Below the pieces are notes generated by a model. It did not search any database, was not told the origin of the DNA, and worked only from the letters and a program-made list of their open reading frames with translations. A program made the translations under genes and the position numbers. A DNA stretch of 64,000 nt from Branchinecta lynchi (lineage: Eukaryota > Arthropoda > Branchiopoda > Anostraca > Branchinectidae): NCBI GenBank assembly GCA_023053575.1, contig JAKZAP010000009.1, forward strand, positions 21,743,869-21,807,868. The letters run 5' to 3'. This document shows positions 5,301 to 43,985 of this stretch, in pieces; the first letter of the stretch is position 1, and the number at the start of each line of letters is the position of its first letter.

Positions 5301-8300
5301 AATCTGGCCATGTACCACCGGAACGATGACGACCCCATCCTGAAAGCTGCAAAAGAGACTGCGACGGACAGGGACGCCTGGAGTGATGCATCCTCTGATG
5401 AAAATGATGAAGACTATGTATTGAAGGAAACAGATAACTTGATTCTTGTTGGACATGTGGAAGGAGACGAAGCTGTTCTGGAGATCCACGGTAAGCTTTT
5501 GGAAGTCTGCCAGACCATGGATTAATTTGTCGACTCGACAGTGTGAGATAGCTGTTATTCCTTAGTAGTAGTAGAACAGTTTTATTGAAAATAAATATTT
5601 TGTTTTCAGTACGGGGCTTGGGAGGCTGTGCTAACTTGTAGGAGATAAAAAAAAAAAAAACAAGAGAAGAGAGAGTAGGGAGAATGAGACCATGTACCGA
5701 TACCAAAACAGAAAAAATATTAACGAAAAACATTACCTTACGTGACCCCCAAACGACAAAACACAACAAACAAAAAATATATAAACAAACCTGAAAGAAA
5801 AATTTTCAGTTTCGAAGGTATGCCTGCTGAGCAACTCCATACGTAGATCCGACTTAAATTGGTTAAAATTACCTATTTCCTTAATACCTTTACTTAGTTT
5901 ATTCCACAGCTTGGAAGCTCTGTAAATAATGGAGAAGGAAGACCTTAAAGTCTAACTGAAAAGAGCTGAGATAGGGCAATCTACTTACACGTCACGTATT
6001 CACTTAAAGAGGCTCTAAGACTCGATGGAAATGCGTTACTTCCTTGCTCCGCTGTTCACGGATAATCGATTTTCGAATAGTGGAATTTTTCGTGTGATTT
6101 GTGGTACCTCTATGCGCTTTAATCTGTGTTGTATGCCTTACGACAAAGAAATCTGTTTTTTTTTTCTTCAGGCACTAAGCAGTCCTTACCGTACCAAGCT
6201 CACCACTGCCCACTGAACAGCCGCGTTGTTGATATTAAAAATTCCAGCGTCACGGTCGAATTTACGTTGTGGGACGACTGCAGATATTCTGAGCGTGATA
6301 ACTAGAGCAGATAGTGGAAAAAAAAAACTTTCTGCAGCCCCGTATCCAGGAATTTATTTGGGGGGGGGGGGTTGCCTGTGGGTCGGACAAAAGAGTACAA
6401 AAATGACATAGATCAGATGAACAAGCCTATAAAAATGATTATTTGTGTATGTTTCGGGGAGGGGGGGGGGGGGGTTAACCCCCTACTGGATACGGCCTTG
6501 CTTTGCAGAATCCAAATAATTCAATGTAGCCTACTCAGTTAAATGATAGAAAAACAAGTTGGCTTTCAGTTAAACTTTCAAGTATAACCGAATAGGGCTA
6601 AGATCCGTAACTCTAGTAACACTTATTTTTTAATTAAATAGGCATGAAAACCCGATAAAAATGCGTTACTCCGTTTGTCCACTATCCACAGATAATCGAT
6701 TTCATCGAATGAACTTATTCCCTCGGATTTGTGGTACCTCTATATGCTTTTCCCTCTATGCTTGAAATATATAACAACTACAAAGGTAAGCCATTGCAGA
6801 AAAATAATTCATATAACAAAAAGAAATAACTTATCATCACTTCCCTACTCTCATTAGAGGACGTACCTCGCCATTTTCCGAGCTTAGCGTGCATAACACA
6901 TTTAATTGCAGGTTTTCATTGAAATTCAAATTCTCGGCGTCTGGATGAATTTTGGGATGTCGTGCAAGCAGCGCACATTCTGAAGTTATTACGAGAGCCA
7001 CAGGTGAAAAAATATAGAATCTCATAGATGGGTCAAAATATTCAGTGTATTCATATATTAGATTTGAAAAGAATCTGCGTTTTCAGTTAAACTTGAGAAC
7101 TTGCGGGTGTTGTGGGGGGTTGAACCCAAGCTGACTCCGAATCATGTTTGACAGTGTAAAACGGATGCGTCAGCTGAATTTTATTAGAGCTATTATTCTT
7201 TTTGCTTGAGCCTGAAGATGACCCTTGCCAAGAAGGGCCGGAATAAATATTCCTTCAGAGATAACAAAACCGAAGTTGATCAGAATGCAGAAAAAAAACC
7301 TTTCCTTTCATCGTCCCAATCCCAATCTTGCAGTAAAAAACAGCCACCTTGTCAAAAATAAAATCTCAGGACTAGTTTTTTCCTACAGTGGTATTTAAAA
7401 GTAATTAGCCCGAATAAAATATTTAGAGTCGTTAGAAGCTTCAGTTATTTATTGCAGATTTGTTTCCTTCCCCGAAGTTGACTCTGAAGATTGACAGCCT
7501 GACGAGGACCCTTGCCAAGAAGGGCGGAAATATCGCTGCCAAAGTATCATCGCTGACATATCCGTTGTATGCATCATTTGAATATAAAGGCCGAAATATA
7601 GCTCAATAAAATTCAGCTGACGTATCCGTTTTTAATACTGGACTGTTTTGTACTAATTGGCATTACTTTTTGACTAATTTTTTTACTTCTTATTTTAAGT
7701 TTATAATGCCGAGGAAGAAGCCATGTACGTTCACCACGAAATCCTACTACCGGGCGCTCCAATCTGCGTGGAATGGCTGGATTTTGATCCCTCAGATCCT
7801 GCAGCTGGTAAGTCTCCGTAGTCAGCTGGTAAGTCTCCGTAGTCAGCTGGTAAGTCTACGTAGAACAGCTTACCTCTAAAGCTCCGCCCACATAAGTTGC
7901 GTTCTTTGTCACGGGAGTTCTCACCGGGGGTCTCCGATTATTGTTAGAAGGCGTTTTTGCAAACACCACGGTATCTGTTACCACGGTAACTGGATCTGCT
8001 ATTAGTCGTTTTTGCAGATACGGTATCTACGGTTGCTCTGCAAAAACGACAATTGCCCAAATTGCGTTTTTTGAAGTCATCACAAAAGGAAAACTGACAT
8101 CCGGTCACATCTCTAAGTGCCTAACTTTTTCCCACCAATTTGACAAAAATTCATGAAAAAGAGATGACTTTTTCAGACACAACGATCAGTCACTACGGTC
8201 GGACCGTGGTATCTGAATATCAGATACCACGCTAACTGGCTAGACACCACGATAACTGCAAAAACGCCTTTTCACCTTGGTATCAGATACGACGATATTC

Positions 8301-11300
8301 AAAAACGACTTTAGACCGTGTTAGCAGATACCATGGTATCTGCAAAAATGCAACTCTCATAAGGCGTTTTTGCATCCACCTGGTGACTATTCACAGGTCT
8401 TATAACCCCTTTTTGAACTAACTGGTGTCCGGTTTTATCTCACCGGTGCGGACTAACCAGAACGTGCTCGGAAGCCCGGCTTTTCCCGAGAAGTTAGCAA
8501 CTTTTCATCAATTGATGTGTTTCGCGCAAAACCCAGAGTTTATGCCCTTTTTGCACTCACCGGTGACTATTAACCACCGGTAGAAAACGCGTTGCAAGAG
8601 AAGAACCGGTCACCGGTGACAAAGCACTAGAGACAGCCCGGACTGCAACGAACGCAGCTATAATAATTTTTTTTAAATATGAGACCAAAGAAAAATACGC
8701 AATCAATAATATTTTATACAATGTTTGTACAGTAATGTAATATTTGAAACAAATTTTTGCTTTGCGTCCCTCTCCGAAATTCAAACAGGGAGTTATCAGC
8801 AAAATACAAAATTAAGAACTCCACCAAAAAATACATAAAATTGAAACAAGCGCTCGAGCAAGAGCTTTAAATGCTTGCGCGAACCAAATACTAACTCGAC
8901 TCGTGGTATAGATCTTAGTATTATGTTTAGTGCGTGTATATATTTTTCTTTAGTTTCTTTTCTTTTTCTTTATGTACTCAGCTGTTTCCCGTTTGTAAGC
9001 GGGCACAAATAAATATATAATTTAATGATTTAATTCAGTACAGTTTATTGGTAATCCCTCAAAAAACAGTGAACAAATGTTTTGAAAACATTTCAAACAT
9101 CCTGCCCTCTCAGCCCATGAAATTATTAGCCATTTTTTCATTCCTGAACCCGATTAATGTGCTTGTCACTGTGTTCAAATTTTAAGTCTATTTAGTGTGT
9201 TTTTATCTATATGAAAATAATGTTGTCATGTTTATTTACATTGTTTTGTTTAAGTGTTTTAATATGTATATTTTACTTTGTGTATTTTATTCATACTCCG
9301 CTGTTACGCATAAAGCGGGTCACAAATAAATACAAAAAAAGTGGAGGGCGTGTAGCCATAGTGAAGTAGTACAACAGAAGAAGAAAAAAAACAGACAACG
9401 CAAGTAGTAAAATTTTTACTGAACAGAACACAATTAAAATCAGAATTCACTCGAAGGGGGTAGACCACTGGTGGTTTAGATCAGGGGATAAATATTCTTT
9501 GAGCCCAAGCTGACTTTGAAACATCAGGGGTCTCACGAAGAGCGGGGAGGGGGCGCCGCCCCCGAATGTTGTCGTCCAGTCGGTAAAAACTAACCGAGTC
9601 GACGCGAAGCGCCACGATTTTTTTTAAGAACAGTCGATTTTTTTCTTGGAAACAGTCGATTTTTTTTGTAAGAACAGTCGGTTTCTCGTGAAAATAGTTG
9701 ATTTTTTTCTCAAAGTGCACCTGAACAGTGATGAACACACCATGTAGAATGCATTTACAGACATGGCCACGGAGAGCATTATTCTCCTGAGCGTGACGTT
9801 TTCAAAATAGGACTGTTCGTTTCTGGAGGTTCGCACATGCAGACTCCAAGACAAAAAGCGCAATTCATTCAAATCTTGTACAGCGCTGGCCGGACGTATT
9901 GGAATTTCTGCTAAATATACGTTTGGGCTTAATTGGTTAGAAAATATTCCAGAAGAAGGGTTGATTGGAGACATTTGTTCATTTCTAAAATTGTTCGGTA
10001 CTGAAATAAGGACAGATGCAAAATGGAGCAAAAATCAAAGCTTGGAAACACTATTTCGTATTTGGATTGGGTTTTCTGCAGGCAAATTTTAACGGAAGTC
10101 ATACAAATACGGATGAATTTCTCTGCCAAAAAGGAGTAACTGGTCCATGGCGGCAAATGCGTCAAAATTTTGGAATGAACAGTAAACTATTTGGACAATA
10201 AACATTATTTTGACAATAAACAGTTTTATCCAAAATGCTTGTGACGAGGACAGAAAACAGCAATCACATCCAGCCATTCACAAATACCTAATTGCTGTCA
10301 AAGTGCTCCAGCATTAGGGTATACACAGCATTAGTAAGTAAGTAAGTAATTTATTTGTAACCCGCAGTTTGGAAAAGCGGAGTAAATGAAAGAAAATAGA
10401 TAAAAGAGCTGGAAGCTCATATGGCACTTGTAAGGCTTGGTAAAAGGTTGAAAGTAGGAATATCACCGGAATTCCGGACACTCCCTACAGCTCTCCCCCC
10501 CCCCTCGGTACCCGAAATACGGTCCGACTCTGTCACTGATGCACCTAGGACTTGTGCCTCTACTTCCCACCACGTTTCATCCTGTTCGCTCCACTCTATG
10601 CGTGTCACAAGATATCCGGTTCTCCCCTCAGACCCCCCCCCCCAGTTCATCGGATCCGGTCCGGACTTGAAATGGGAAATGCTGAGACATGAGGTCTTTC
10701 AAGAAAACAAGTTTCATTAAGATCCGATTACCCATTCGAAAGTTATGTATGCTACTAATTTCCGGATTCCGCCCTCTCCCCTCCCCCTACGATAGTCAGA
10801 TCGGGCAAGTGACTGTTTCCAAGTTAATCTGGTCGGGTCCCTGAGATGCCTGCCAAGTTTTATCGTCCTAGCCCACCTGGAAGTACATTAACTACGGATC
10901 GCCGAAATTCCAGACCCCCCCCCTCCAACTCCCCCCACAGTGCTCGAATCCGGTCTAGTCCTGTCAGTGATGTATCTAGAGCGTGTGCTTGTTCTTCGCA
11001 CCAAGTTTCATCCCGATCACTCCACTCTGAGAGTTTCACACGATTTCCGGTTCTCCCCTCCGATTATCCCCCCCCCCCCAGATTCGTCGGATCCGGTTCG
11101 GACTTGAAATGAGACACGAGATCTTTCCAGATATCAAGTTTCGTTAAGATCCAATAACATTTTCGAAAGTTATGAATGTCCCTATTTTCCGGATTCCGCC
11201 CCCCCCCTTCCCCCCACGATGGTCGGATCGGGCAAGTGACTATTTCCAAGTTAGTTTGGTCGGGTCCCTCATTCGCCTGCCAAGTTTTATTGCCCTAGCC

Positions 11301-14300
11301 TACCTGGAAGTACATTAACTACGGATCGCCGGAATTCCGGAACCCCCCTCCAACTCCTCCCACAGTGTCCGAATCCGGTCCAATTAGTGATATATCTAGA
11401 GCTTGTGCTTGTTCTTACCACCAAGTTTCATCCCGATCGGTCCACTCTGAGAGTTTCACATGATTTCCGGTTCCTCCCCCCGACCCCCCCCCCCCCAAAT
11501 TCATCGGATCCGGTCCGGACTTGAAGTGAGACATCTGAGACACGAGATCTTTCCAGATATCAAGTTTCATTAAGATCCGATCGGCCGTTCGAAAGTTATG
11601 AATGTCCCTATTTTCCGGATCCCCCCCCCCCCTCCCCCCACGATGGTCGGATGGGGCAAGTGACTATTTCCAACTTCGTCTAATCGTGTCCGTATTTGAA
11701 ACTGAATATCCGAAATACTTGTCCTTGACACATGGTCAAGTTTCACGCATGTTCGATTACCCTTTCCAAAGTTATGCATTTTAATAGTTTCCGGATTTCC
11801 AATCCCTCCGCTCCCCCCACTATGATCGGATCTGGAAAGTGATTATTTCCTAGGTAATCTGGTTGGTTCCCTGGTATTCCTGCCAAGTTTCATTGTCCTA
11901 GCTTATGTGGAAGCGTTTCACGAGTTTTGTTTAGTTTAACCACTTGGTCTTACTTTAATCTTTGAACCATATCTGGTCCCGCATTCGCTCCCGAATACAT
12001 CAAGTCTTGGCGCAGTATTAGAGCGCTGGTTTTGCGACTCAGAGGTCTGTGGTTCGATCCCGCATTTGGGCAGCGCTCTTTTTGCTGCGTTTCGCCGCTT
12101 TTGCTTTATAGTTTCCTGGCTCCCGGATCCGGGGAAAGTCGGATTGGGGAAGTGATTATTTGTAAGTTGATCTGGTCGGGTCGATGTGCCTGCGAAGTTT
12201 CATTGTCTTAGCTTGTGTGGAAGTACCTTAACTCGCGATCACCGGACTAATCGGCCGACCGACCGACCGACGGAAAAGTGATAGGTACATGGCACTTGGC
12301 CGAAGGGCAGGTGCCATAAAAACACATAAACACACAGAAAAAGACATTTAATTTTCAATCTTCGGTCAGGAAGCACTAGATAACGTCGTGCGCTGGTTGG
12401 GCCCTGTTGTCCATGATTTTTTTATAGCGATGAGGAAACATCCAAAAGGGTACCATTTTCATATTGAATTTTGAACTTCTCCGTCAATGTATGGTTATGG
12501 CACAATTCCGACAAGTGGAGCAGGTGCTTTGCATATTCAAAATAACACGATATCATCTTTTAATCTCCTTCTTTCGCAGAACATGTGTGACACCAGAACG
12601 AAATAGTATTGAAGGAGTGCAGAAGGTGCTGTACAAATTTCCCAAAGCTTTACGATTATAGCGCCCCCGGTTGGGAACAATGCATCCGTAGGCGCATCTT
12701 AGACTATTGGAACACAACTGTAGGCTATCTTTGGCACAAGCTCGCCTAAGCAGGAAATTCTCTAATTAGTGTGTCAATATTCGTATCTCCTGCTTTGAAG
12801 TTTATTTTGGCATTTTTTCAGGAAACTTAGCAGCCGTCGGTGGCGTTTCACCTGTGATAGATATCTGGGACATTGACATTGTTGGCTGTCTGGAACCCGC
12901 CATGAGCCTGGGGAAGAAGGGAAAGAAAAAGAAGAAAATCCCGGGCTATGGTCATACTGACGCAGTATTGTCGCTGGCGTGGAATTCAAGCGCAAGGTAA
13001 TGAGCGTGTTCCATCCTACTTACCATAGTTACTACGCATTAGGTCACGAATTCTGGCTATTTCCGTCAAGGCTGGAACGACTTTTCTATTTTCCCGCAGA
13101 ACATCATACCACGGACGAATCCGACCAATCACGATTCAGAGATCCGTAGTTACTACGGCTACTACGCTCCCGAGCGTGGTAAGCAAATAGTTACTATTAG
13201 TTACTATTTCGAGAAGGTTGGAACGGTCAGCGTAGTAACTTTTGGTGAGGTTGGAACGTAAATAGTAACTAATAGTTACTATTGGTACGAGGGTGGAACA
13301 CGCTCAATGTGTGCGACGGGCCGTAATCGACCCGGGTCTCTGCGCAAGGAGATAATCTGGAAGAATTGGCTCGAGGCTCTTCTAGTGGAGCAGACAACGT
13401 CTTGATCAGAGTAAAATGACACTAGAGACTAGTGCCATGACTTGAAAAAAGTGATACATACTCGAAAAGCAGTTACACTAGCACCACTAGCGATAGTGAA
13501 CGTCCCTACTAAAGCTCAATCAGTGTATCACCAGTATCACCTCCGATAACTTCATATTCTGAACATAGCAAAAAAATGATCCAGCCTCCATTGCTTCCTT
13601 GGTGTGTGCAGACCGCACCTTCACTTTACTAGAAATTTCTGAACCCGAAAGTTTGTCTCGCTTTAAATTCCGCAAGCGTAGTAGGTGGCGCTATGAGTAT
13701 GGCCCGTTTGCAAAGAATGGAAAGCATAGGTATTGGCGCTACTCTCTAGTGTTATTAGGCTCTGGTCTTAATTGAAGGAGATTAAAGTTGTCTAGACGAC
13801 GAGGAAGTCGTTCGTCGTAGACGGCTGGTCTTGCCCTTTCAGCATTGATTCTACCCAGTAGCTCATACGGGTTGGGGGGGGGGGGGGGTAAGTTAAAGGT
13901 GAAGGAATCACCATCAGTCTTGAAAAACCTAGCCAGCAAGTGCAATGGGCGGTCCGGGAAAGCCACCCTGGTGCTTTCACTCACCCTTCCTGTCACCACC
14001 AGTATTAAAATATTTTAAAATACTGTAAGTCGAACAGTAAATAGTGCGAGGGGTCTTTTAATACAATCCTTGGGAGATGACGTCCCCCAGGTTTATATTA
14101 AAGGACCCCTCGCACTATTTACTGTTCGACTTATAGTATTTTAAAATATTTTAATACTTTAAAACTAGGCTGTGCTTTCAACAAACAACCCACTGTTTTG
14201 AGCCTTTTCCGAGACCCGTTGAGTTGTAGCGAAAACATAGACAAAATTTACATAACCGGTTTTTCTCATGGAAAAACTTCTCGCTGACAACCCTCGACAG

Positions 14301-20300: not shown

Positions 20301-23300
20301 TTATCTGCCCTCAGCAACGAAGCGGCTGGGCGCTAGCTAGCTCCAGGTATCCATTTGAAGCTTGGTCGACTTTGGCTTGTCTTAAAGGGTGACACACCAC
20401 CTAGACTCGAACTAGCGACCTTTCAGTCACGAGTTCGGCGCATTAACCATTCGGCTACGGACGTACTAGAAATACTGAATAGTGATCTCGCTTCAACAAA
20501 AATTCGTCTAAGCAGTCCCTTGATACTGATATCACAAATTGCATAACAAATAAGTACCTTCTAAAATATTAGTATTATTGTTATTTATCTGAATCCTTCA
20601 TAACTGAAGAGTAGTGTATAAAAAGAAACAACAACATGTCAATCAAACTCACACACACTCACCTTCGTATATCTTCCATCTACGTAATATCTTTGTTTAG
20701 ACATTACTGCCGAATTCGAATCCGAGCAGAACGGCCAAATGCAAATCCGGAACCGGATTTGCACTCTGTGATTTGTCTTTTTCTTTTGCAGATATGTGAG
20801 AGAGTTTGATTCAAGAGTACCAGATGTCATCAAAAAGTGGAAATTAGATTCTGATGTAGAGAAAGTTCAGTATGACCACTTCCGGCCCAATAACTGCTTG
20901 GTAAGTCTCGTGCCAAATATATTTGGTAAATTCATTATTTTTATCAGCAGAATTCAAAATAATAAGCCCCGCCGAAATAATACATAGAATTGAAACAAGT
21001 GCTACCGCAAGCGAGTGGCTGCCCACTCTCCACCACTTGGTTTACACCATGTTACGTCACCCATCCGCCACGCGCGCCACTCATCCGCCACGCGCGCTAC
21101 CCTCCCTCCTCTTGCTCAAAAATAGCTATTTTCTGCCTCGCGCGCCACCATTCCGCCACCCTTCCGCCACGCGCCACCTGCCCGCCTCTTGCTCAAATAT
21201 AGCTATTTTCTGCCTCGCGAGCCACCGTTCCGCCACGCTCGCTCGCTACCCGCCACCCGGTGTAGACCTTTTTCTTGAGTGGGTGACCCCTCGAGCGCAA
21301 GAGCTTTAAATGCTTGCGTAAACCATATACTAACTCCATTTGTCGTATAGATTTTAGCATTATGTTTAGTGCGTGTAGATATTTTCTTTAGTTTCTTTTC
21401 TTTTTTTTCGTTTTCTTTTTGTACTCCTTTTGCGAGCGGGCAAAAATACAGATATATATATTTTACTCCCGCTCAGTTGCGGGAATCGTCAAAGTGCACT
21501 TTTGTATAACAGTCCCTTGTATAACGCCACAAATTGTATAACAAATAAGTTATAAGTTGTACAACAAATATTATTTAACAAATTAATAGAGACGAAAGCC
21601 TTTTTGCTGCAGTTATATTATTATATTATTATTATTATAATTTCTTATAAGCTTCATTTTGAACCATGATTTTGCGACGAAAGACAGAGAGAGGGGTTTA
21701 TTCAAGAACAGGAAAATCTGCATACAGGACCTTTCATACCAGAGAATAAAACCTTTTGTTTATTTACGGACCTTAGGTCATTGTTATGAGTCTTGTTTAA
21801 GGCTCCTTAGAGTGGGCTCGCCTGTAAGGCCTAGTGTATGATGGGTGGTTTATAGCTTATTGTGGTTCGGTACGCAAACCTTAGTGTGAATCGATCGGGG
21901 GAGTCGACAATGAACCCGTGAAGTTTGCACGTGTAGTAGGCCACCAGACGCCCTAGGCTGTCCTGACTCCGATGACTGTATGACATTTACCAACTATGTC
22001 CGGCCTACTACACCCCTCGCTATAACATCAGGTTGAGAGTGCTTCTTCACATACAAATACAGTCGTCGTAACAAGGGGTTGCCAATTTAAATACAAGCAG
22101 TAATCATGAAACTTATACCCATCAAAGTTTATACAGAGAATACACACAAACTAATTTTGGAAGATTTATTCCAACAAAGTTTTCAACGGATATGTCAGCT
22201 ACGATTCTTCATCAGCGATATTTCGGCCCTTCTTGGCAAGGGTCCTCGTCAGGCTTTCAGTCCTCTTGTTCAACTTTGGGGAAAGAAACAAACCTGTAAA
22301 ACAGGTTTGATTTAAAACAGGTTTGATTTACAGGTTTGTTTCTTTCCCCAAAGTTGAACAAGAGGACTGAAAGCCTGACGAGGACCCTTGCCAAGAAGGG
22401 CCGAAATATCGCTGATGAAGAATCATAGCTGACATATCCGTTGAAAACTTTGTTGGAATAAATGTTTCAAAGTCAGCTTGGGCTCAAAGAATATTTAATT
22501 TTGGAAGAAAAACCACGTAAGTTCATATCGCTATAGTGGACAGCTAACTCAGAGCAAAACAACTCTTTGAGAGTACCGCGAAGACCTATCCTTCCCAAAA
22601 AAAATCCGCTAGGTGTCACGGCGGTCACACCGTATTTTCCTGCATAACTAAACTGTTGGCAAGAACCTACGCGGGGGGCCTGATCTTCAAAAAAACTCCT
22701 CAGCCACCTCTTGAGCCATCTAAGATGACGAGCAAGCCCTCTTCGACATGCGCAGTTTGCAACAAAAGGGTTACTTCTAACTCTATCTCATGTACTAAAT
22801 GCAAAAAGTACGTTCATGCTAAGTCAGCCAAACATTCGTGTGCAGACTACACAGTGAAGCAAAGACTAGAGGAAATAGCAAGTGGCGTGACTGAGTGGAA
22901 CTGCAATGCTTGTAAACTACGATCAAGGAGAAGCCCCAAAACAACCCCAAGAACACAACAGATGCCGGACAATGAGCTCTCAATGGACAGTGCTATACAA
23001 AACAGTAAGCTAGTGCAATCAGCTGCATGTATGCAAAGTGTCCCGATTGCGCGGTTGACTTACGTCACTCCCTGCACCACGCAAACTGGTCTTAGAACTG
23101 TTCGCTTCAAGAGTAAAGAACTATTTTCCTCCACACCGGCTGCGCCTGTCAAAACTAGAGACGAGGAATTGCTGTCGGATGAAAATTCCATCCAGGTATC
23201 GTCATATCCATTCATAACTTTAACAGGAAAAGAGGAAAATGTAGTAGAAGACGAGGGACTGTGTTGTGCTACACTGTCTTTAGTAAGGCCATCTACCGGA

Positions 23301-26300: not shown

Positions 26301-29300
26301 AAAAACGCTACATCTGTAAAGGATCTGAGACCCATCTCAAAAACTTCGGTATTCTCCAAAGTTTTTGAGCAATTTATTTATGACTGGCTTTACAGTGACA
26401 TCAAGGATAAGCTTGACCCGAGGCAATACGGGTTTCGCCCAGGTTGTAGTACAATACACTATTTGGTAAAATTCTTGCATGACATTCTCTGGCACCTTGA
26501 AGAAGAAGGAACATTTGTGGACACAATCATTGCCGACTTTGTTAAAGCGTTTGACTATTTGGACCATAACATCGTCGTGACGCAAGCCACCGAAATGGGA
26601 GCCAGACAGATCGTCACTCGAATGTTAGCAGAGTTTCTTACAAACAGAACACAGTGCGTAAAGCTAAGTCACGGCGAAACGTCGTCACTACTTGACATAA
26701 CGTATGGCGCAGCGCAGGGTAGCAAAATCGGACCATTAGCCTTCATAATGGTAATCAACAAATTGCTAGCTGAGTTCATGCACCGATACAAATATGCTGA
26801 TGACCTCAATGCCGCCTTACTCAGATCACTGGGGGACCCAGGGGGTGTGAACCCCGTGAAAAATCTCTTGGCAGATATTAATTCTCAGGCAATGGAAGCC
26901 AAGCTCACGCTTAGCCTGGAGAAGTCAGTCATCTTCCGAGTCAGCTTTCTGAAGCGAGAAATTCCCGAAGTTGGAGAAGTTGGGCTAACAATTGCCAAAT
27001 CTGTTAAAGTGTTGGGGGTGTTCTTTGACAACGACATGCGATGGACTACACATATGGCCTATCTTTATAAAATTGCCAATCAAGCACTTCGGTCTTTCAC
27101 TCTCCTGAGACGGTTTGGATTTCACAAGAAAAATCTCCTTATATGCTACCTGACATACGTCCGTCCACTACTCGAATATGGATGCCCGGTATGGAATGCT
27201 GGGATCACTCAAGAACAAAGCGACCGACTCGAAGTGTTTCAAAAGAGAGCCTGCAAAATAATTCTTGGATCAAATTACATCGATTACAAAAATAGCCTAA
27301 CAACACTCCAGTTGGTCACCTTGTCCGAAAGACGCCACCAGTTGGTAATGAACTTCGGGATGACGTGCCTAGCAAGTGAGCAGCACCGCGATATTTTACC
27401 TGCTTTCATTGCTCCAAGAACTGACAACCCAGCTACCCGGACATCCCAAAAAAACGCTGGGAAACAAAAACTAATTGCCCCACCAACTCACTCATCGGAC
27501 AGATACCTTAACTCATTTGTGCCATACTTTGTCAAATTTTATAATCAGCTACAGTGACATTTTGTAAATGCATCATTTAATTGTATATATAATTCGAGTG
27601 TATAAATTTGTTGACAATCCTACGCTATTTTTTGTGAAAACATAAATATTAAGGAAAATAAACATTGATTGATTGATTGATGCATCGAAAATGGGCCTCC
27701 GTCTCTTTGTTCGCGAGCAGTGGCGGACGTAGATTCTAGCCAGCGCTCGTTAACGATTGGTCAGAGCAAAATAATTCTGCTCTGTGATTGGTTGTATTTC
27801 GGTAGGGATGTTCGTATCCGCTAGTGGAGCTAGTGTTGCTGCAATTTGACTGTGTGTCACTTTTTCGAATTTCTCGCAGTACTCTCTAGAGTTCTTTTGC
27901 TCTGCACTAACTAAACTAAAAGCAAGGCTTCACCTTCCAGATATTTCGTCCCGGTTCCAGACAGCCGTTTCCGTCGAGACGGATCTGGAAGGTGAAGCCA
28001 GGCCAAAAACGTCTGGAAGTCCGGGGTGTTGGACACCCCAGATTCCGGATGTTTGGGAGGTAATCCATACGGCAGAATGGATTTTTATGAGTCTTTAGTT
28101 GTTTTTCCACAAGTTCATTTTCCAGCTTGGGCGGATTGAGCCTGAAGAGGACACTTGCCAAGAAGGGCCGAACTTTAGCTCTAATAAAATTTACCTCACT
28201 TGTCCGTTTTGCACCGTCAAAATAAATATTCTCGCCGTTCCCCGAGGACTCCTCGGGAATCGAAGGGAACGGTGAGAATAGACGGAATAAAAAAACGAGA
28301 ACACGGGGAATGCTTCCAAAATAGATTACGTTCAAAAAATAAATATGCAGTTGACGAAATTACTCTGGATCCACTTTATTTTTGGTTTTGTTTGTTCTGA
28401 TTGTTTTTTTTTATCAATTTTATATTGCACAAACACGAGCAAAAATTGATTCCCCTCTGAATCTGAAAGGGAGTCCATTTTGATGATAATCGGAGCATTC
28501 CCCGTCCGTGGGAACTCGCGAGAATTACGGAGAATGAGTCCCCAGGACAAAAAAAAATGCGGGGAGTGAGTCCCCGTGACAAACAAAAATGCGGGACTCC
28601 TCAAGTTGAGTCCTCGGGGAACGGTGAATACGCTTTTTGCAGGGAAGCACGGATTTGGTTGGTAAGCAAGTCCGCGAGTATTGAGAAGCGCTGCCGTCTT
28701 CCTCGGGGAAGCACTGTAGTGGAAAACTATTGTAGAGGAGGGTTTTCGCGAGCTGGAAAGCAAAGTTGGAATCACTTTCCAATGGTTTTCGCGCTACTTC
28801 GGAAAGTTGCGGAACTTTCCACACCGGTTTTTATGGCACCTGCCCTTCGGCCAAGTGCCATATAGCGATCGCAATTTCTGTCCGTCCGTCGGTCTGTCCA
28901 GGTTTTGCTAGTTCGGGCACTTCCACATAAGCTAGGACGATAAAACTTGGCAGGCATATCAGGGACCCCAAATGATTAAGTTGGAAATAATCACTTCCCC
29001 ATCCGAGCACCGTGGGGGGAGTGGAGGGAGGGGGAATCCCGAATCTTGAGGTATTTATAACTTTTGAACGGGTGATCGGACCTCGATGAAACTTGAGATT
29101 TGGATAGACCTCATGCCTCAGACAACCCACTTAAAATCTGGACCGGATCCAGTGACTTTTGGGTGGGGCTGGAGGGGGTACCGGAAATCTTGGGAAACGC
29201 TATGAGTGGAGGGATCGAGATGAAACTTGGTGGGAAGACACCTAGCAAACACTAGATACATCATTGACATAACCGAGCCGATTCGGGCACTGTGGGGGGA

Positions 29301-32300: not shown

Positions 32301-35300
32301 CCACAATAGCAAAAGCTAAATAATAGGCAAGAAAAAGAAAATAAATAAACACACATTACTAACTAACACATCTAAACAATATACCATCAACAACAAAACT
32401 TAAGACAAAATACAGAAACAAATCAAGAACCGAATAGGCAAAAATAACAACAAACGTGAAATTTTATTAGTTATGAAAATAATTAGTGACAAGGGGGGAG
32501 AATGAATGGAGCCGACGTGCGGTACTTGATGCTGGAAACTGCTTGAGAAAATTTGAATGTCTCGTTGCGTAAGTCGGTTCATTGAGTTGTTCGGGAAGGA
32601 GGTGGCGGAATCCTGTTCGTTTAAAACGTCATATTTTCTTCAGGTGAGCACCGAGTCAGGGATGATATACTACTACGACACAAGGACAGAGAAACAACTG
32701 TGGCAGCTAAAAGCTCACGCCGAATCCTGTACAGGTATGTTTGCTTTTCCTGGGGAAATTAATATAATCCTAATAATATTAATATAATCCTCGCCTGTAC
32801 GGCTTTCTCAGGACTGTTAAAATTAAACCGAACGTCAGTCATGAGCCGGTCCATGCCCGCTTTATATTGATTTACGGTGTCAGAGTTCAAAGTGCTTTAA
32901 GGTTTTAAAGTTCAAAGTGCTTTAAGGAAAACGATTCAGATGGTGGACTTTTTTATTTTAAAATTTCACCTTCCAAAATGTATTTATTTATTAATGGAAA
33001 AAGAGGTTAAGCCGAAGCTTCTCTCCCTATCTCTAAATTGTGGGATTAGGAGAGATCAGCTATGATTTGGACAAAAAATGATTGGCTTGCTAAAACTCAA
33101 AAAGTTGTTAGTTGATTTTATTTGATGGTGCAAAACGGATACGTCAGCTGAATTTTATTGGAGCTATATTTCGGCCCTTCTTGGCAAGGGTCCTCTTCAG
33201 GCTCAAAACCGCTCAATTTGGAAAAACGAACTTGTGGAAAAAAAAAATCAGCTGACGTATCCGTTTTGCACCATCAAATATGATTCGCAGTCAGCTTGAG
33301 CTGAAGGAGTATTTATCCAGCAGATTTTGTTGTTGAGTACGGCAAATGGAAGTCTATCATATACTCTGCGTATCAGATTTTTTCCGATGTTGTAGTGCTG
33401 TTAGTTCGAGAGCAGAACGAGTCTTCCATAATGCCCCAATCATCTACCTCTGGGACATGATGGTGGGGTTCATTGGGACACCAGGTAATGATTTAAACAT
33501 GCAAAAAAATATAAAAAGAAACATAATAATAATAATAATAATAATTTATTTCTTACCCACAAATTCCAGAGGAAAAACAAGTAGAGTACAATAAAGAAAA
33601 AGAAAGGAAACAGATACTAAAATAACTAAACATACAAAAACACTAGCACATAAACAGGGGGGTAAGGGGGTGGTGCGGTGAAAACCGAAAGTATGAAAAT
33701 TGTTCAGAAAGGAGATAGAAATTGTAATTGCAGGTTTGTTTCCTTCCCCGAAGTTGAACCAGAGGATTGACAGCCTGACGAGGACCCTTGCCAAGAAGGG
33801 CCGAAATATCGCTGATGAAGAATCATAGCTGACGTATCCGTTGTAAATATTGTTTGAATAAATGTTTCAAAGTCAGCTTGGGCTCGAAGAATATTTATTT
33901 TTTATTATTTATGGGGTTTATTTGAAAAAATGCTAAGAACTACAAAGCCCTCCAGAAGTTTACACTTGTTAAGAAATTGATATTATTTACACGAGCAATA
34001 CTGGTGACAGAAATGGCCATCAAGCTTTAGTGGCACTAAGACAAAGTTGAAAAAAAAAAATGAGCTGAGTTGCAGAGCGAATGCATGAAAAACTTACGAG
34101 GAGGTCGACAAAATTTGTCGGCAACCGTTGTCTGTGTTTGGTTCGCGCGACTGATACCTCTGGTTATCACTACGGAAATATTCACCATGTAGCAATTGAG
34201 TTAATTTACAGACGGATGCAACTAGATGCAAGAGTAAAACCCAAATGCAATCTGGACTGCAGTAGATGTATTATTATATTATGTTTTATTCATCCACCAA
34301 AATTGATGATAACAAAATAAATGATTATAGAAGTACGCAAAAACAAGCCAACACTGAAGCAAACTCTAATACCAGAACAACTAAAAAAAAAACAAAAAAA
34401 CATATGGAAACGGCAAAGGCAGATCAAAAACCGCAAACAGTGAAAAATTTTTAAACATTAAGATTTTAACTAAAAATTTAAAAATAAAAAAAAGTCAATG
34501 AAGTAATTGAAAGCTCATGGAGGAAAGATGAGAAATTATGTTATGAATCAAAATTATTTTTGATTATCCTTGCAACTTACGTCTAAACTTTTCATGCTTT
34601 TTCAACATAATTTCAAGAGGGTTTTTTATACCCTAATACTACCGTACTAATAGTTACTATTGTTAGAAGGGTGGAACACGCTCGCTGTCAACCTTCAGCT
34701 CTGCTTGAAGTGGGACTAGGAAAACAGTTTCACTAGTCCCCTAGTGAGGTGGGACTAGGTTCATTGTTCCGCTTTTGATTTTGTGTTCTTTTCCAGCCCT
34801 CACCCTTAGCACTCAAGTACCTGGTATGCTTCTGAGTGGATCAGTGGACAAAACTTGTAAACTGTGGGACATATCGAACAGCACCCCACAGTTGGTTCAC
34901 GAACGGGACTTCAAAATCGGGTCCGTCTACTCCCTCGGCTGCTGTCCTGATGTCCCCTGGGCGTTCGCAATGGGGGGAGACAAGAGGAGCAAATCTTTCA
35001 ATGTCTGGGACTGTAGGGAGGTGCCGGACGGTAAGGGTTTCGATCATTTTGGAGTTGAGGTTGTAATACTCTTGATGGCTGAAGCTGCGGTCGATCTACA
35101 ACAAATAATCAGATAGAACCTCTGTCTTTGGTACCAAGCAGCGACTATGAATACCCCGACAAAACTGAGCGAACATTTAATGTAGCTTTTTACTGGTCTA
35201 CTCCACTTCGGTATTCGCCGTTGCTCATCGCAGAGAAAGAAAATGCAGGAGGCGTACTCCGCGTGCTGACCCGCTCTTGAGCGCGTCCAAAGAACCAATC

Positions 35301-38300
35301 AGCTTTGTCTTCTACTTTCCCTCAAGGTGGTTTCACAGCGATATAGCTAATTGTGGTGATAAAGAAACGTGATATGGCGCGAAGCTGCTCCGCTCGTTCG
35401 CAGCGGAAAAGGTACGGGGAAAGACTAGTACAGAGATAGTGAGACGGAGGTTCTATCTGACTATGCGCAGTGTGGCATTTTGGTCTAACTGCAGATCAAA
35501 ACTCACGTATTGAAAGAATCCAAAAACGCGCTCTCCATATTATCCATAAAGGCCCAAAAGTACCCTACTCCCTTCTTCTAAGAACGTACACAGTTGATAC
35601 ATTGGAGAAACGGAAACTGAACCTATGCCTCGAGATCGGTAAAAAACTTATTTCGCACCCCATCTACAATGAGTTTCTCCCTTCCCCATACAACAATGTA
35701 AGGGAAAGGCAAGAGCGAGCAGTCTCTACGAAGGTCCCAATATTCCAACCAGTAGCGGCCAAACACAGCCGTTACCAAAACAGTTTTATACCAAAGATTG
35801 TTGAAATTTTAAATAGCCTTTGACCATTTGTACGTGCTTTTAAGTGTTTATGTTATGACAGTACTCACCAATTTTGGTTTTGTAACCGTAAAAGTGTGAG
35901 TGAATAAATTACTATTCCATTCCATTCCATTCCAAGTGTTCTTGGTTCGATTTGAGTCCTCCTTGTCTCGATCGTGTCTTCTTGTTACTGCCTTGTTACG
36001 GCTTAAAGCCTTGTCAGGTGAATGACTAAACGGACAAGTGTCACAAATAAAACGAAATATACCCGAGACAGGACCGAAACTTGCTCCGAGATCTCTCGCC
36101 GTTCCCGGGGGAGTCAAAGAAAACGGCGAGCAGAGGGAGTGAGTCCACGCGGAATACATTGACAGAGAACGACGAGAACATAGGGAATATTTCAAAAATG
36201 GTTTTTGTTCGTAATTTGTTTTTTTCATGTGGTGGAATTAGTCTGGATTCGCTTCTTGTTTACTTACTTTCACAAATGTTTTTACTTAAAAAGATGCCTT
36301 TTGTCAAAATCAGTTTTAAACCAGAAACAAACTCAATATTGATTTCAGAATGTTCTATTAACCATCGCTAACATCTGTTTTTGAGAAAATTAAAACGCGA
36401 GAACCTCCCGAAACTGCGTCCCCTCCGAATCTGAAAGGGAGTCCTTTTTTGATGATGGTGATGATATTCGGAGCACTCCCCTTCCGTAGGGACTCGCGAT
36501 AATCCGAGGAGTGAGTCCCTGCGACAAACAAAAACGCGGGACTCCTCAGGATGAGTCGTCGGGGAACGGCGAGAATACGCCTCAATTCATCATTCAGGGC
36601 GTCCTGTCTGACAGCCCACTGACAATTGTCCGCTGACCGGACAAATAAAACGGTATTAAGGAGACAAAGGTAGTTAAATAAACGGCATTTGGCTAACAGG
36701 ACCGAGACAAGGATAAATCGAACGCGGCTTAACTGTCCTTGCCGATGCAAAATCGCCGTGTACTTAGCGGAAGAGCCGGAAGCGGCACCGCGGATGTCTG
36801 TCACCAAAGATCGCCGTGATTGACTGACACAGGATTTGAGTTTTGTGTCTTTAGGGCGTCGTTTTCTCGTTCTTCCTGAGGATTATTGGCGTGGTTTAGA
36901 CTTTCCATATAGATAAGAGTATGGTTAGGAACCCTCCGAGGCTATATGAAAAGAATGAAAACTATATGGAAAGAATGTAGTCATGTTTATTTACATTGTT
37001 TTGTTTGGTGTTTTAATATGTGTATTCTACTCATACTCCGCTGTTATCCAAAAAGTGGGTCACAAAAAAAAAAAAGATGAACATGACAAAAAAATGGGTG
37101 GGCGTTAATTGTAAAGGGAAAAAAAACGGGGATAAATACAACTCTCACTTCAGATTATTTGGTAACCAGTTCAACAGTAATTAGCTGAAATAATGGCGAC
37201 AAGAGTTTTTGTGGCAATAAGGGGATTAGGGAGGTTCTTATCTTTTCTCCTTTTTTGGATAGATAATATCAATCAGTAAATCATTTGTTATAAAAAACCG
37301 GGACAACGTGTAGTCGATGATTGGTTTCTATCGTTCTGGGAATAAGTATGAAATTATATGTATGTAAACTTGCAAATTAAATGCGTCGTAACGGTTTAGT
37401 GTACGTATAGCGTCCAATAATTTGTAACTAATGACTTCAGTTTACCGTACTAATTCGTTGTCTAATTACGTTTCTGACACTAAAACTAAAAAACACTACA
37501 TTACATTACATTCCTGAAATATAATTAATTAAAATATATTGGAGTCTGACTTCAAAATTCCGTTCAGCATAGATAGTCCTTCAGCCTAAGCTGACTGCGA
37601 ATCATGTTTGACGTTGCAAAACGGATGAGTCAGCTACATTTTATTAGAGCTATATTTCAGCACTCCTTGGCAAGGGTCCTCTTCAGGCTCCATTCTGTCA
37701 AGCGGGAAAATTAACTTGTGGAAAACTAATTAAAGATTCTTCATTAAATATCTTATTTTATGAACTTCTTTTCTGAAAATTGGTTGGGGTTAAAGCTGGT
37801 GCTGTGACTTACATTCGGGACAAGGCTGCTTTTTTTGTTGTTCGATTGGGTCGTCGGTCAGTCTTCAGTTCAGTTCAATATTTCATGTTACTCACCGGTG
37901 TAAGTTTAAAGGACCCGTCGCCCTATTTACTCTTCAACTTACAGTATTTTAAAATGTTTGAATACTTTAAAAATAGGCTGTGCTTTCAACAAGTAACCCA
38001 CGGTTTTTGCTGTTTTAAGCCTCTTCCGAAACCCGTTGACTTGTAGCGAAAACAGCGAAATAATTTACATAACCGGTTTTTGTGATGGAAAAACTTCTCG
38101 CAGACAACCGTCGACAGCGTGAAAAATCAGAAAAATCAGCGTGGTTTTGTTAGAGGGGTCGGAATGTACCGTACAGAATAGGGGTCTAGGGGTTTAGAAA
38201 TCCTTGGAGTGATTATGGAATTAGATTGCGAAAGAGTTATAGGTAAGACCGGTCAACTTTTTTTTCTGTAAAAAGTGTTCGATCCGGTGACATAGGGCAG

Positions 38301-38493: not shown

Positions 38494-38513
38494 GCTATAT
38501 AACGGAAACCGAA

Positions 38514-38815: not shown

Positions 38816-38862
38816 TGCAACTTAGTTTAGACCGGAATTCAGCCTAGTCCGCCTTCTGGGCG

Positions 38863-39577: not shown

Positions 39578-39764
39578 CCTGTAATATATTTGTAACCCAC
39601 AAACTGTTTTACAAAAAAAGAAAGTGGAGTAAAGATAATAGAAAGAAGAAAAGAACAAAGACAACTGAAGAACAACTTACGAAACATACAATAGGCCTAT
39701 AACTACAAATAAAAAAAAGTCTGGATACGGCAACAGACGTAGACTAGATATTCAAAACAATGCG

Positions 39765-39880
39765 TATGACGGATACGTCAGCTACGATGCTTTAGCAGCG
39801 ATGTTTCGGCCCTTCTTCGCAAGGGTCCTCGTCATGCTGTCAATGTTCAGATTCAACGTCGGGGAAGAAAAAACCCTGCA
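39765..39880 (-). ncRNA. decayed hammerhead element
   Basis: Minus strand ATGACGAGGACCC ... AAGAAGGGCCGAAACATCGCTG: the invariant C3 is A, so cleavage is unlikely; stem II and GAAA are kept. Confidence 0.5.
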
Positions 39881-40142
39881 ATAAATAAATCAGAGAATAA
39901 CATTTCTGGCGGAAATCAGTGTGCAATTCTTGCAGCCGTGACAAAACGTCGGTAGCTCCGTAAGATTTAATCGGAGCAAAATAACACTAGGAAGTAGCGT
40001 CAAGGCCTATGCTTTCCTTGCTTCGCAAACGGGTCATACTGATGCGCCGCCCACTACGCTTGCGACATTGAAAGCGAGACAGAATTGCGTATTTAGAAAT
40101 TCCTAGTAAACCTAAGATGTGGTCTGCACAAAGCGAAGAAAT

Positions 40143-41620: not shown

Positions 41621-41745
41621 ATGGAGTTATTGGAGCCAGCGTTGTTCCACGACCAATTGGGTGGACGTTCACTATCGCTACTTTTGCTAGTGTCGCTGCT
41701 ATTCGACTGTGTGTCACTTCTTCAAGTCTTGGCGCTACTCTCTAT

Positions 41746-43797
41746 ATATATATCAATTTATTTTTAAAATTCCTTCACGGGCAAGCCGAACATTGGATTT
41801 TTCGTCATAAACATAATAACATCAACACCTTTGTCATAATTTTGTCATAAATAATAAACTTATATACAATTCGAATCACTGTAAGTGATCATTTACAATT
41901 ACACTTATATTAGAACTGAAATTCAAATCACTATAACATAAACAAGAGTTACAACGAATTATGCATTTCGACGAATGACGTCACGTTAAACGTATGTAAG
42001 AACTAGGATTGAAACAATTATAAAATAAGCACGAATTACGATGAATTATACGAGAATCACGATGAGTTATACATTTCGACGAATGACGGTACGAAGCTTT
42101 TTCTGTATCGGTCATGAGATGCAGAAAGGGGATGTAACTTAGGAATCGGCTGCGAAACCATTCGCGCAGGTCTAGGCCTAACAGGTTCAAACTCAGGCGG
42201 GAAAATGTCTCGCAGACGAGGATTCTCAAGCGTCTTAACTCCAAATTTGAGGCACATTTTTTCCCGACGTTGGGCCAAAGATTCCAGCTTGAAACTCCGA
42301 AGAAGCTCAATGTATGGCACCTTTGGCGATTTGGAAGTAACAAGGAGGGCTCGGAATTGCAATCTCTCCAACGAATTCGACTGATCCCGTGTCAAACCGA
42401 AGTGCCATACCTGACAGCAATATTCTAAAGTGGGGCGGATAAAAGACAAGAAATTTTTTAAAAGGTGCTCGGTAGGGACACCGTAACGGGATAATAATTT
42501 TAGGGATCGGATTGCCATATTACCCTTTTTAAGCATGCTGTCCACTTGTTTGATCCATTTTAAGTCATGGGTAATATGGATTCCCAGTAACTTTATGTGT
42601 TTCACACACTGGGCAGTGGGGAGGGGAGGGTAAAAGTCCGGCATGCTTTTTAAAAATGATATAGTTAGCACCAACGATTTATCCATGTTGACGACCATGT
42701 CATCCATAGCTGCCTCATCACAGATATCATCGATGATAACCTTAGTACTGCTTTTAATATTTCTTCTGCACACTTCAAGCAGCGACAGGTCATCCACGAA
42801 TTTCCACCTATCTGCGAAAGAAAGTGCGAGCTCATTGACCATAACCAAAAAAAGAAGCGGTCCCAACAGAGTACCCTGGGGTACACCGCAAAAAATAGGT
42901 AAAATATCTGAAAATATCGTTTTGTACTTAGTTTGTTGTGTTCGGTTTGACAGAAATTGTGCAACAATTCGTACCAGAAACGGCTCAATTTTAAATTTAT
43001 TTAGGAGTTTGGCAATGAGCTTGCTGTGGTTAATTAAATCAAACGCTTTTTTTAGGTCTATAGCTATTAAATTAATCCATATATTTGGATTATCCAAATT
43101 CTTAAGTATTCTATCTAGCAAGCTAACTAAGTAATGTGCTGTTGATGTTTTTGGCAGGTTACCAAACTGCTTCGGGTCAACAAGTCTCAAAATTGTTTCT
43201 TTTAACCATGATGAAAGGAACTGTTCGTAAACTTTACTAAAAATAGGGGTCATAGTAATTGGGCGCACACCAGTAAAATCATTAGGGGAATCTTTTTTCG
43301 GAATAGGTGTCACATAACCATTTTTCCAAACTGACGGGTACTCACCTGATTCTGTTATTTTATTAAAAATATGTGAAAGGGGACTACTAATTTTCTCAGG
43401 GAAAGCTTTAATCAACTCAACGGGAATATCTACGGGTGTTACACTCGTTCTTTTAAGCCTCCTTAATTTTTTAGTTACTTCATCTTGGCTAATTTTAGGG
43501 AAATCAAAATCAGGTGGGATTTGGGGAATTTCTTCGTGGGGGAGGGGAGGGAGAGTTTGAACTATAGCAGCAAGGTGAGCATTTAATTTATTTGCCGTTT
43601 CCTGTTCACTTTCATTAAGGTTAAAATCAAGTCCCTTCTGAACCTTCCCCATCATTTTCTTCACTCCATTATACCATTTTCTAGGGTCAGACTTTAATAG
43701 TTTTTCAGTCTGATTTGCGTAGTGGTTTTTTGCGGCATTCCTCGTCATTTTGCGAATCTTATTTTTCAGTCGTTTTGCTTGGTCAGTCTTACCAGCT
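41746..43797 (-). mobile_element. 5'-truncated LINE nested in the hAT MITE
   Basis: 3' UTR at 41746-42056, RT-coding part to about 43797. Inserted at TACTCTCTA of the MITE end, whose last bases resume at 43798. Confidence 0.85.
42057..43748 (-). CDS. LINE reverse transcriptase, 5'-truncated ORF2
   Basis: 563 open codons. RT blocks: GYVTPIPKKDSPNDFTGVRP, AIDLKKAFDLINH (motif A), GVPQGTLLGPLLF, then FVDD where YADD/FADD is usual, NMDKSLVLTISF, and a C-terminal domain with VWHFGLTRDQ ending RYRKSFVPSFVEMYNSS. The frame may extend a little upstream of the Met at 43748. No endonuclease is present. Same broad group as the LINE at 22560 but a distinct lineage; closest relative in the window is the 35461 fragment. 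It retains an open frame despite truncation, so the insertion is recent. Confidence 0.88.
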   Translation of the reverse strand: MTRNAAKNHYANQTEKLLKSDPRKWYNGVKKMMGKVQKGLDFNLNESEQETANKLNAHLAAIVQTLPPLPHEEIPQIPPDFDFPKISQDEVTKKLRRLKRTSVTPVDIPVELIKAFPEKISSPLSHIFNKITESGEYPSVWKNGYVTPIPKKDSPNDFTGVRPITMTPIFSKVYEQFLSSWLKETILRLVDPKQFGNLPKTSTAHYLVSLLDRILKNLDNPNIWINLIAIDLKKAFDLINHSKLIAKLLNKFKIEPFLVRIVAQFLSNRTQQTKYKTIFSDILPIFCGVPQGTLLGPLLFLVMVNELALSFADRWKFVDDLSLLEVCRRNIKSSTKVIIDDICDEAAMDDMVVNMDKSLVLTISFLKSMPDFYPPLPTAQCVKHIKLLGIHITHDLKWIKQVDSMLKKGNMAIRSLKLLSRYGVPTEHLLKNFLSFIRPTLEYCCQVWHFGLTRDQSNSLERLQFRALLVTSKSPKVPYIELLRSFKLESLAQRREKMCLKFGVKTLENPRLRDIFPPEFEPVRPRPARMVSQPIPKLHPLSASHDRYRKSFVPSFVEMYNSS

Positions 43798-43859
43798 TAG
43801 TGTTATTTTGCTCTGGATTTAATGATCTTAGAATTACCGGTAATTCTTGCGGTTCGTTT

Positions 43860-43985
43860 TCCTAGCTTGAACTTGAAGAGGACCCTTGCCAAGAATGTCC
43901 GAAATACCGCTGGAATAAATTTCAGCTGACGTATCTGTTTAGCGCCACCGAGTGGGAATTGCAGTCAGTTGGGGCTGAAGGTACT
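43860..43985 (+). ncRNA. decayed hammerhead element
   Basis: TTGAAGAGGACCC ... AAGAATGTCCGAAATACCGCTG: C3 is T and stem II has mismatches. The shared GCAGTCAGTTGGGGCTGAAGG tail follows. Confidence 0.45.

Follow-up and report, generated by a model that had tools for sequence, protein, structure and literature searches.

Hammerhead-like motifs of Branchinecta lynchi lie in short units that resemble Penelope pLTRs and pair head to head, usually with a single tail

Introduction

Minimal type I hammerhead ribozymes were reportedly described in Penelope-like elements (PLEs) by Cervera and de la Pena in 2014 and by Lunse et al. in 2017. The present article deals with hammerhead-like motifs, and with the short repeated units that carry them, in a stretch of 64,000 nt from Branchinecta lynchi (assembly GCA_023053575.1, contig JAKZAP010000009.1, positions 21,743,869-21,807,868, forward strand), hereafter the window. 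The role of the minimal PLE hammerheads is described as unknown (PMC7761336).

Among the closest described systems are Penelope elements whose insertion products have been characterized. In Adineta vaga, a typical element consists of an open reading frame (ORF) placed between two pseudo-long terminal repeats (pLTRs) of about 200 bp, with an adjacent inverted pLTR (PMC3846280). Head-to-head pairs are the most frequent arrangement, target-site duplications (TSDs) are short (9, 10, and 8 bp in the examples given), and one inverted pLTR may carry a 31-bp tail on its 3' side. The pLTR holds the first 12 codons of the ORF, or 22 with the tail (PMC3846280). In PAc, a Poseidon element of Anolis carolinensis, a tail of 30-40 bp is explained by two adjacent start sites of the reverse transcriptase (RT); PAc cuts and extends both strands, and a hammerhead lies near its ORF start (PMC11167929).

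We find that the hammerhead-like motifs of the window are carried by short units with two alternative 3' ends, and that nearly all head-to-head pairs of these units have a tail on one arm only. Because this anatomy matches what is described in PMC3846280 and PMC11167929, we read the loci with high confidence as pLTRs of Penelope-like retroelements. Some copies are solo or truncated, and others are arranged as direct repeats or as head-to-head inverted pairs. The copies and a third family are new, the kind of mobile element being already known.

Copies in the Window and in the Genome

A mismatch scan of the window with a 39-nt motif (at most 16 mismatches) yielded ten hammerhead-shaped copies of a 44-nt motif and one partial copy with 14 mismatches (7565-7603). 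About ten loci in hammerhead order had been listed in a sequence-only reading of the window; all ten were recovered, its minus-strand positions being 6-10 nt off. The copies are named here by the first base of CTGANGA, which lies at 7212, 7499, 22375, 28142, 33775, and 43873 on the plus strand and at 22252, 33200, 37686, and 39835 on the minus strand (marked by a final minus sign). Aligned over 60 columns, they require no gaps and separate clearly into the two subfamilies already recognized in that reading, A (7499, 22375, 22252-, 33775, 39835-) and B (7212, 28142, 33200-, 37686-, 43873).

Core bases are intact in six of the ten, namely the five listed before and 37686-, which has to be added. 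Only 33775 and 33200- retain the core together with all 12 counted pairs. The other core-intact copies (22375, 22252-, 7499, and 37686-) each carry one helix defect, an A.G mismatch in helix I in the case of 22375 and 22252-. Over 44 columns, the eight imperfect copies show one to seven departures from the consensus of their own subfamily.

The pattern CTGANGA-N(8-35)-GAAATAT, chosen after the copies had been seen, matches the window eight times vs. 0.07 expected, and none of 100 shuffles reaches eight. Two of these matches lie outside the A/B family: 4510-, which belongs to a third family (C) described below, and 20029-. Scans of viral and prokaryote contigs for the stem pattern gave no match.

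In the genome (575,737,328 bases), the exact 32-nt core, with N7 left free, has 9,870 matches (4,947 forward and 4,923 reverse), and the reversed pattern used as a control has none on either strand. Two further sets of sequences were considered: 30 exact-core loci of 3,032 bases each, all within the first 2.03 Mb of contig C1, and a sample of twenty 10-kb stretches from ten other contigs. The sample holds six more copies at up to nine mismatches vs. ten in the window, which is rich in hammerhead-like copies relative to the sampled stretches. Window, loci, and sample together give 58 copies, corresponding to 47 distinct 60-mers.

Two 3' Ends and One Tail per Inverted Pair

The motifs sit in short units that can end at either of two 3' positions. 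In four A copies, a common 5' border is located 46-48 nt upstream of the core in five of six pairwise comparisons and 53-54 nt upstream in the sixth; copy comparisons gave no clear 5' border for the B units. A units measure 134 nt, or 168 nt with the tail, and C units about 162 and 210 nt. Among the 12 A/B ends of the window, six are tailed (0-2 mismatches to the tail box) and six tailless (6 mismatches, as is most common among 3,000 random places). Over the 58 copies, the tail box shows 0-3 mismatches in 23 and 5-7 in 35, with exactly four in none. Hence, the end motif said in the sequence-only reading to be shared by several copies does exist, as an optional tail on half of the window A/B ends and not as a fixed end.

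The A tail is 33 nt long, a length fixed by the flanking repeat of the pair at 22 kb. In B, the tail starts as in A, before the TG of an ATG, and its outer end is not fixed by any repeat. The C tail measures 51 nt and begins 19 nt before the ATG. Compared with the A/B tail box, that of C has two mismatches out of 13. A putative ORF start can be read in the tail, MFQSQLGL(E/K)EYL in A, MIRSQL... in B, and MNGQLGF in C, its ATG lying 87, 81, and 130 nt, respectively, downstream of the first core base. MFQSQL or MIRSQL readings, which are too short to prove coding, are found in five window tails, those with an ATG of their own, and in 12 of the 30 exact-core loci. In a fragment made of the tail only (around 9501), two bases of the ATG belong to the flanking repeat.

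Thirteen head-to-head combinations of cores occur in the loci, the sample, and the window. The ten outermost were counted, leaving out three inner combinations that share arms (L015, L022, L025; tail mismatches 6/7, 6/0, and 5/7). One tailed and one tailless arm are found in nine of these ten pairs. In eight, the predicted ends are flanked by direct repeats of 7-13 nt with right-hand offsets of 0-7 nt: 13 nt in L012, L028, L038, and the window pair at 22 kb, 11 nt in L015 and L018, 9 nt in L022, and 7 nt in L025. At random places, matches of at least 7 nt were obtained in 145 of 3,000 trials and of at least 9 nt in 28 of 3,000. Within the window, the one-tail rule is also obeyed by the B pair 33119-33315, the C pair 4397-4871, and a B/A mosaic, 7110-7640, the tailless arm of which stops about 12 nt before the usual place. 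The C pair has a flanking repeat of 10 nt; this repeat and that of the 9501 fragment were spotted by eye and measured afterwards, against random sampling that omitted the array at 14.9-18.2 kb. No flanking repeat was found for the B pair or the mosaic.

Many inverted pairs, some with long and near-perfect arms, would also be expected of a foldback or MITE-like (miniature inverted-repeat) DNA transposon whose inverted repeats hold a conserved hairpin and no ribozyme. We consider this explanation very improbable, since the length of the flanking repeats is not constant (7-13 nt), the arms of a pair differ in their ends, single and truncated copies exist, and the core occupies hammerhead positions in A, B, and C alike.

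Units also occur in direct orientation. Direct pairs, 75-355 nt apart, were seen in six of the 30 exact-core loci (L005, L015, L021, L022, L024, L025; L016 and L023 show two of these loci again) and in the window at 7212/7499. In L015/L016, the two direct cores are exact and 143 nt apart. No array of at least three direct units was seen in the examined loci. These direct pairs bear on a second explanation, in which the units would be retrozymes, that is, short non-autonomous elements with tandem transcripts that the hammerhead cuts and that are circularized and copied back in trans. The common A 5' border would fit this explanation, as would the A unit lengths, close to the reported 170-400 nt (PMC7229834). 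However, arrays are lacking in the examined loci, helix III is minimal here whereas invertebrate retrozyme hammerheads are reported with a stable one (PMC7761336), and a tail restricted to one arm of inverted pairs, with a putative ORF start in it, is a Penelope feature. Since the carriers look like solo or inverted pLTRs that include a putative ORF start, a retrozyme origin is not favored and appears improbable.

The Motif and Its Three Families

All three families carry CUGANGA, 21 nt containing stem II, GAAA, UA, U-H, and a helix I of 4 bp. The complete type I order (CUGANGA, GAAA, and U-H with the stems) is present in two of the ten A/B copies of the window and in both consensuses. In stem II of A and B, an A is bulged out after the second pair. 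Only four of 44 columns distinguish the A and B consensuses: N7 (C or A), H17 (C or A), and the two partners of the outermost pair of helix I, C-G in A and G-C in B. All four differences are permitted in a hammerhead, and one pair is compensatory; only 1.2% of random four-substitution mutants of the A consensus retain the core and the pairs.

The sequence-only reading had proposed a longer helix I, GACAGC with GCUGNC; in 33775, the pairing is actually CAGC with GCUG. The compensatory change that it had reported in this helix is present, as a single pair, and the genome copies add a third type of outer pair, A-U. Among the 47 distinct copies, this outer pair is C-G in 22, G-C in 12, A-U in three, G-U in two, and something else in eight. 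H17 is C in 28, A in 16, U in three, and never G; N7 is C in 27, A in 18, and U in two, with G in one of the genome matches listed. These counts do not represent independent events, because the genome copies are related to each other.

Family C was found at 4510- as TTCG-CTGAGGA-CGGTTTGCCGGAAGTGCAACC-GAAATATC-CGAA. It has the core and the 21-nt spacing of A and B with an unrelated stem sequence; its stems are wholly different from theirs, yet paired. A hammerhead descriptor, set after A, B, and C had been seen, matches the window at 33775, 33200-, and 4510-, and has no match in 200 Mb of one-strand Markov sequence. With a looser descriptor, a helix I of 4 bp gives ten chance matches per 40 Mb, and a stem II of at least 6 together with a 2-nt loop III gives none.

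Overall, the motif is best read as a type I hammerhead in form, of the Penelope kind, with predicted ribozyme activity. The Penelope-kind hammerhead with minimal helix III put forward in the sequence-only reading is thereby supported, by family C, by the choice of helix I pairs and of H17, and by the insertion anatomy.

A fourth candidate, D (20003-20029, minus strand), reads CTGAAGA-AGGGTGTCCTCCC-GAAATATT, with a hammerhead core and a short stem II. Devoid of helix I and of an inverted partner within 1 kb, it was rejected and may be decayed or due to chance.

Folding and Helix III

The 60-nt A consensus folds as a hammerhead at its minimum free energy (MFE), and the B consensus comes within 0.1 kcal/mol of that fold. 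With 70 nt of natural flanks, the hammerhead is the MFE structure of B33200 and is roughly formed in A7499 and B28142. A 56-nt piece of C also folds as a hammerhead, RNAfold pairing its extra C with G12, the G of GAAA.

Helix III is minimal in these motifs (GAA-A-UA-U-H). Its self-complementary AUAU is found in six of the ten window copies and in both consensuses. Hammerheads of PLEs and Terminons are described without helix III or loop contacts (PMC7761336), and double hammerheads as requiring a palindromic stem III loop and, in eukaryotes, also a tandem arrangement (PMC6466107). Cofolding of two motifs paired other regions and gave no AUAU dimer, so that a dimer is supported by the base sequence alone. 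In the pair at 22 kb, the 157-nt arms would lock their ribozymes in a long duplex.

Weighing the Penelope Reading

Several results weigh against the interpretation of the loci as Penelope pLTRs with a hammerhead. Some concern the insertions. In L021 both arms carry the tail (0 and 3 mismatches), and in L003 and L021 the flanking match is only 5 nt. Nine window spans tested for flanking repeats gave one clear duplication, one 7-nt match, and seven spans with neither; in the corresponding control, 107 of 2,000 random places share at least 13 letters, 88 of them at the 19-nt maximum. The common A 5' border lies upstream of the predicted cleavage site, so that A templates with that border were not cut before copying. 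In addition, neither a Penelope RT nor a GIY-YIG domain was detected among 30 of the 31 window ORFs of at least 120 aa.

Other results concern the ribozyme. The covariation score of the window is matched by 68 of 500 shuffles and the percentage paired by 82 of 500; the compensatory change does not raise the window above shuffled sequences. In stem II, no compensatory type was seen among the 47 distinct copies, although this stem could not vary, because the exact match used to select most copies covers it. With 70 nt of natural flanks, A33775, A22375, and A22252 pair elsewhere and not as hammerheads, and both C copies fold otherwise with longer flanks. MAFFT leaves the C core unaligned with A/B, and common descent of C with them is unsupported. 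Finally, the Rfam hammerhead models gave no match, either at the gathering score or at E<=10, in a comparison devoid of a positive control of the minimal form. The sequence-only reading had itself named a missing covariance-model match as evidence against it, and formally this is the outcome; we do not regard this as fatal, since helix III is said to be missing from PLE hammerheads (PMC7761336). Strong Rfam "miRNA" matches at 22236-22391 and 33118-33280 were rejected, as both correspond to long inverted repeats.

How such units might insert can be outlined as follows. A full unit would consist of a short leader, in which a minimal type I hammerhead lies, and of the first ORF codons, which follow in the tail. 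A transcript of one or more units would fold its hammerhead, and two hammerheads may pair through the self-complementary AUAU of helix III (GAA-AUAU-H), with cleavage predicted immediately 5' of the helix I strand GCUG or GCUC. A Penelope RT, with its endonuclease, would then prime on nicked DNA at one of two RNA sites. Priming at the ATG would leave no tail and priming 33 nt further in would leave one. A head-to-head insertion would thus acquire one tailed arm, one tailless arm, and a target duplication. Its joint could result from the extension of both strands or from self-priming on an antisense template.

The one-tail rule might more specifically mean that both strands of one break are primed together on separate RNAs, at different RT start sites, with the two cDNAs joined 5' to 5' and the hammerhead freeing or pairing the templates. 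We regard this joint-priming idea as unlikely. For Adineta vaga, head-to-head pairs are attributed to self-priming on an antisense template, with palindromes at the junction (PMC3846280), and we keep this view as an alternative because the A pair at 22 kb has a junction palindrome, CAAACCTGTAAAACAGGTTTG. Three truncated B arms (the right arm at 33 kb and, at 7 kb, the left arm and the right partial arm) begin within about 12 nt of the predicted cleavage site. Such starts could be due to cutting or to the RT stopping at the hairpin.

Another explanation retains the Penelope pLTRs and supposes that their hammerhead is inactive or protein-dependent, cleavage being irrelevant to insertion. A core base or pair is lost in eight of the ten window copies, the position of the A 5' border points the same way, and for PAc, mutation of the hammerhead left insertion in vitro normal, the RNA was cut only with protein, and no RNA-seq reads started at the site (PMC11167929). 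However, an H17 that is never G, the types of helix I pairs, and the comparison of A, B, and C suggest constraint during the divergence of the families. We hold this explanation as a tentative but real possibility.

Window Features and Neighboring Elements

The coordinates of the motifs, tails, and pairs are collected in Table 1.

Table 1. Hammerhead-like motifs, tails, and paired units of the window.
Feature	Position	Strand	Remarks	Basis
Head-to-head C pair	4397..4871	.	Only the right arm tailed (51 nt); ACTTGTAACA on both sides, at 4387-4396 and 4872-4881	
Family C motif	4471..4514	-	Core and helices present; extra C before stem II; contains GAAATATC	
Family C motif, second arm (4710+)	4706..4749	+	Damaged (GAAATACC and one helix I pair)	
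B/A unit mosaic	7110..7640	.	Outer arms 7158-7185/7605-7632 inverted; tail on left arm only	
Subfamily B motif	7208..7251	+	Decayed	Mismatch scan, pair count
Subfamily A motif	7495..7538	+	First stem II pair lost	Mismatch scan, pair count
Tail-only insertion	9488..9522	-	35 nt; flanked by ATCAGGGG at 9480-9487 and 9523-9530	
Head-to-head A pair	22165..22495	.	Only the right arm tailed; TAATTTTGGAAGA on both sides, at 22152-22164 and 22496-22508	
Subfamily A motif	22213..22256	-	Left arm of the inverted pair, with one mismatch in helix I	
Subfamily A motif	22371..22414	+	Right arm of the inverted pair, with one mismatch in helix I	
Optional tail of A right arm	22463..22495	+	33 nt; with preceding A: ATG TTT CAA AGT CAG CTT GGG CTC ...	
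Subfamily B motif	28138..28181	+	Decayed (GAAC); tailless	Mismatch scan, pair count, tail box
Inverted B pair	33119..33315	.	Left arm hammerhead, tailless; right arm tailed, cut off near cleavage site	
Subfamily B motif	33161..33204	-	Core and every counted pair retained; hammerhead as MFE structure with natural flanks	
Tail region of B right arm	33280..33315	+	With 12-letter reading	
Subfamily A motif	33771..33814	+	Core and every counted pair retained; cleavage predicted after 33810; tailed unit at 33728-33895	
Subfamily B motif	37647..37690	-	Core intact; one stem II mismatch; tailed	Mismatch scan, pair count, tail box
Subfamily A motif	39796..39839	-	Core base C3 changed	Mismatch scan, pair count
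Subfamily B motif	43869..43912	+	Decayed; tailed; tail ATG lost	Mismatch scan, pair count, tail box

A six-frame regex scan of the window for motifs of a Penelope RT gave nothing convincing, in agreement with the sequence-only reading, where no such RT had been seen. RVT_1 is present, among 30 of the 31 window ORFs of at least 120 aa, only in two ORFs of long interspersed nuclear elements (LINEs). We do not claim that these loci are autonomous Penelope-like elements.

The two LINE frames, CR1-like ORF2 at 24483-27557 (+) and 42057-43796 (-), lie close to hammerhead-like copies. Proteins of sea urchin, feather star, and amphioxus are among the matches of a protein search with LINE ORF2. A ribozyme carried by LINEs was considered and dropped, because the 3' end (ATTG repeats) of the 24483-27557 LINE gave no match to the units in self-BLAST. 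This LINE appears to be near-complete over 22548-27680 (+), with overlapping frames, zinc fingers (weak C1, CCCH), an endonuclease-RT frame of 1024 codons, and an ATTG-repeat 3' end; its first open frame starts 53 nt past the A inverted pair. The second RT frame, at 42057-43796 (-), is cut off close to the B43873 unit.

Other features were noted in passing. A long tandem array with a 78/86-nt spacing (30 copies of a 300-nt register) spans 14970-18049, and direct repeats of about 425 nt with shorter internal repeats are found at 10527-12182, a similar stretch being present near 46684. A tRNA gene (61089-61186, +; 48.9 bits) carries, ahead of the T arm, an insertion of 25 nt in which part of the anticodon arm is repeated. 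Finally, an open frame at 34748-35116 (+) gives weak WD40 matches and resembles an exon from a host WD-repeat gene.

Comparison With Known Systems

In our judgment, the loci represent a sound observation that had mainly been rightly read, ordinary in kind and with a clear rule of one tail per pair. With the minimal hammerheads of PLEs they share the conserved core, helices I and II, dispersed copies, a pLTR location, and a palindromic helix III made of a closing A-U pair and a 2-nt loop (PMC7761336, PMC6466107). They differ by the bulged A of stem II in A and B, or the extra base before the stem in C, and by an RT parent that was not found within the window.

Metazoan retrozymes resemble them in their small units, their type I hammerheads, and their TSDs when present (PMC7229834). 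In contrast, the units studied here show no arrays in the loci examined and have a minimal helix III, tails, and inverted pairs; where retrozymes have direct tandem repeats with a canonical type I hammerhead, only direct pairs with a minimal helix III were seen.

The pLTRs of Adineta vaga are alike in their small size, in the inverted head-to-head pLTR, in the tail of about 31 bp on a single arm, in TSDs of 8-10 bp, and, if the tail readings are coding, in the first ORF codons that they include; an arrangement of two direct and one inverted pLTR can be compared with L015 (PMC3846280). The optional tail of 30-40 bp on one arm of inverted pairs has its counterpart in the 33-nt tail of A, that of C being longer, and the head-to-head inverted pLTR with a short TSD is found in eight of the ten outermost pairs and in C. 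As differences, no ORF body was seen between the arms in B. lynchi, and the units measure 134/168 nt in A and 162/210 nt in C; hammerheads go unmentioned in PMC3846280.

The value of B. lynchi is that a single genome offers 9,870 exact copies of one core, several families, and clear insertion scars, so that the form of the ribozyme can be set against the outcome of insertion for each copy. The joint-priming idea could be checked from sequence, with thousands of copies in the genome. A further parallel is PAc, which likewise has a hammerhead near the ORF start and both tailed and tailless ends, and differs in that its start codon lies inside the hammerhead (PMC11167929), vs. 81-130 nt downstream of the first core base for the putative ATG here. 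The one-tail rule links genomic scars to the two RT start sites shown biochemically for the Anolis element.

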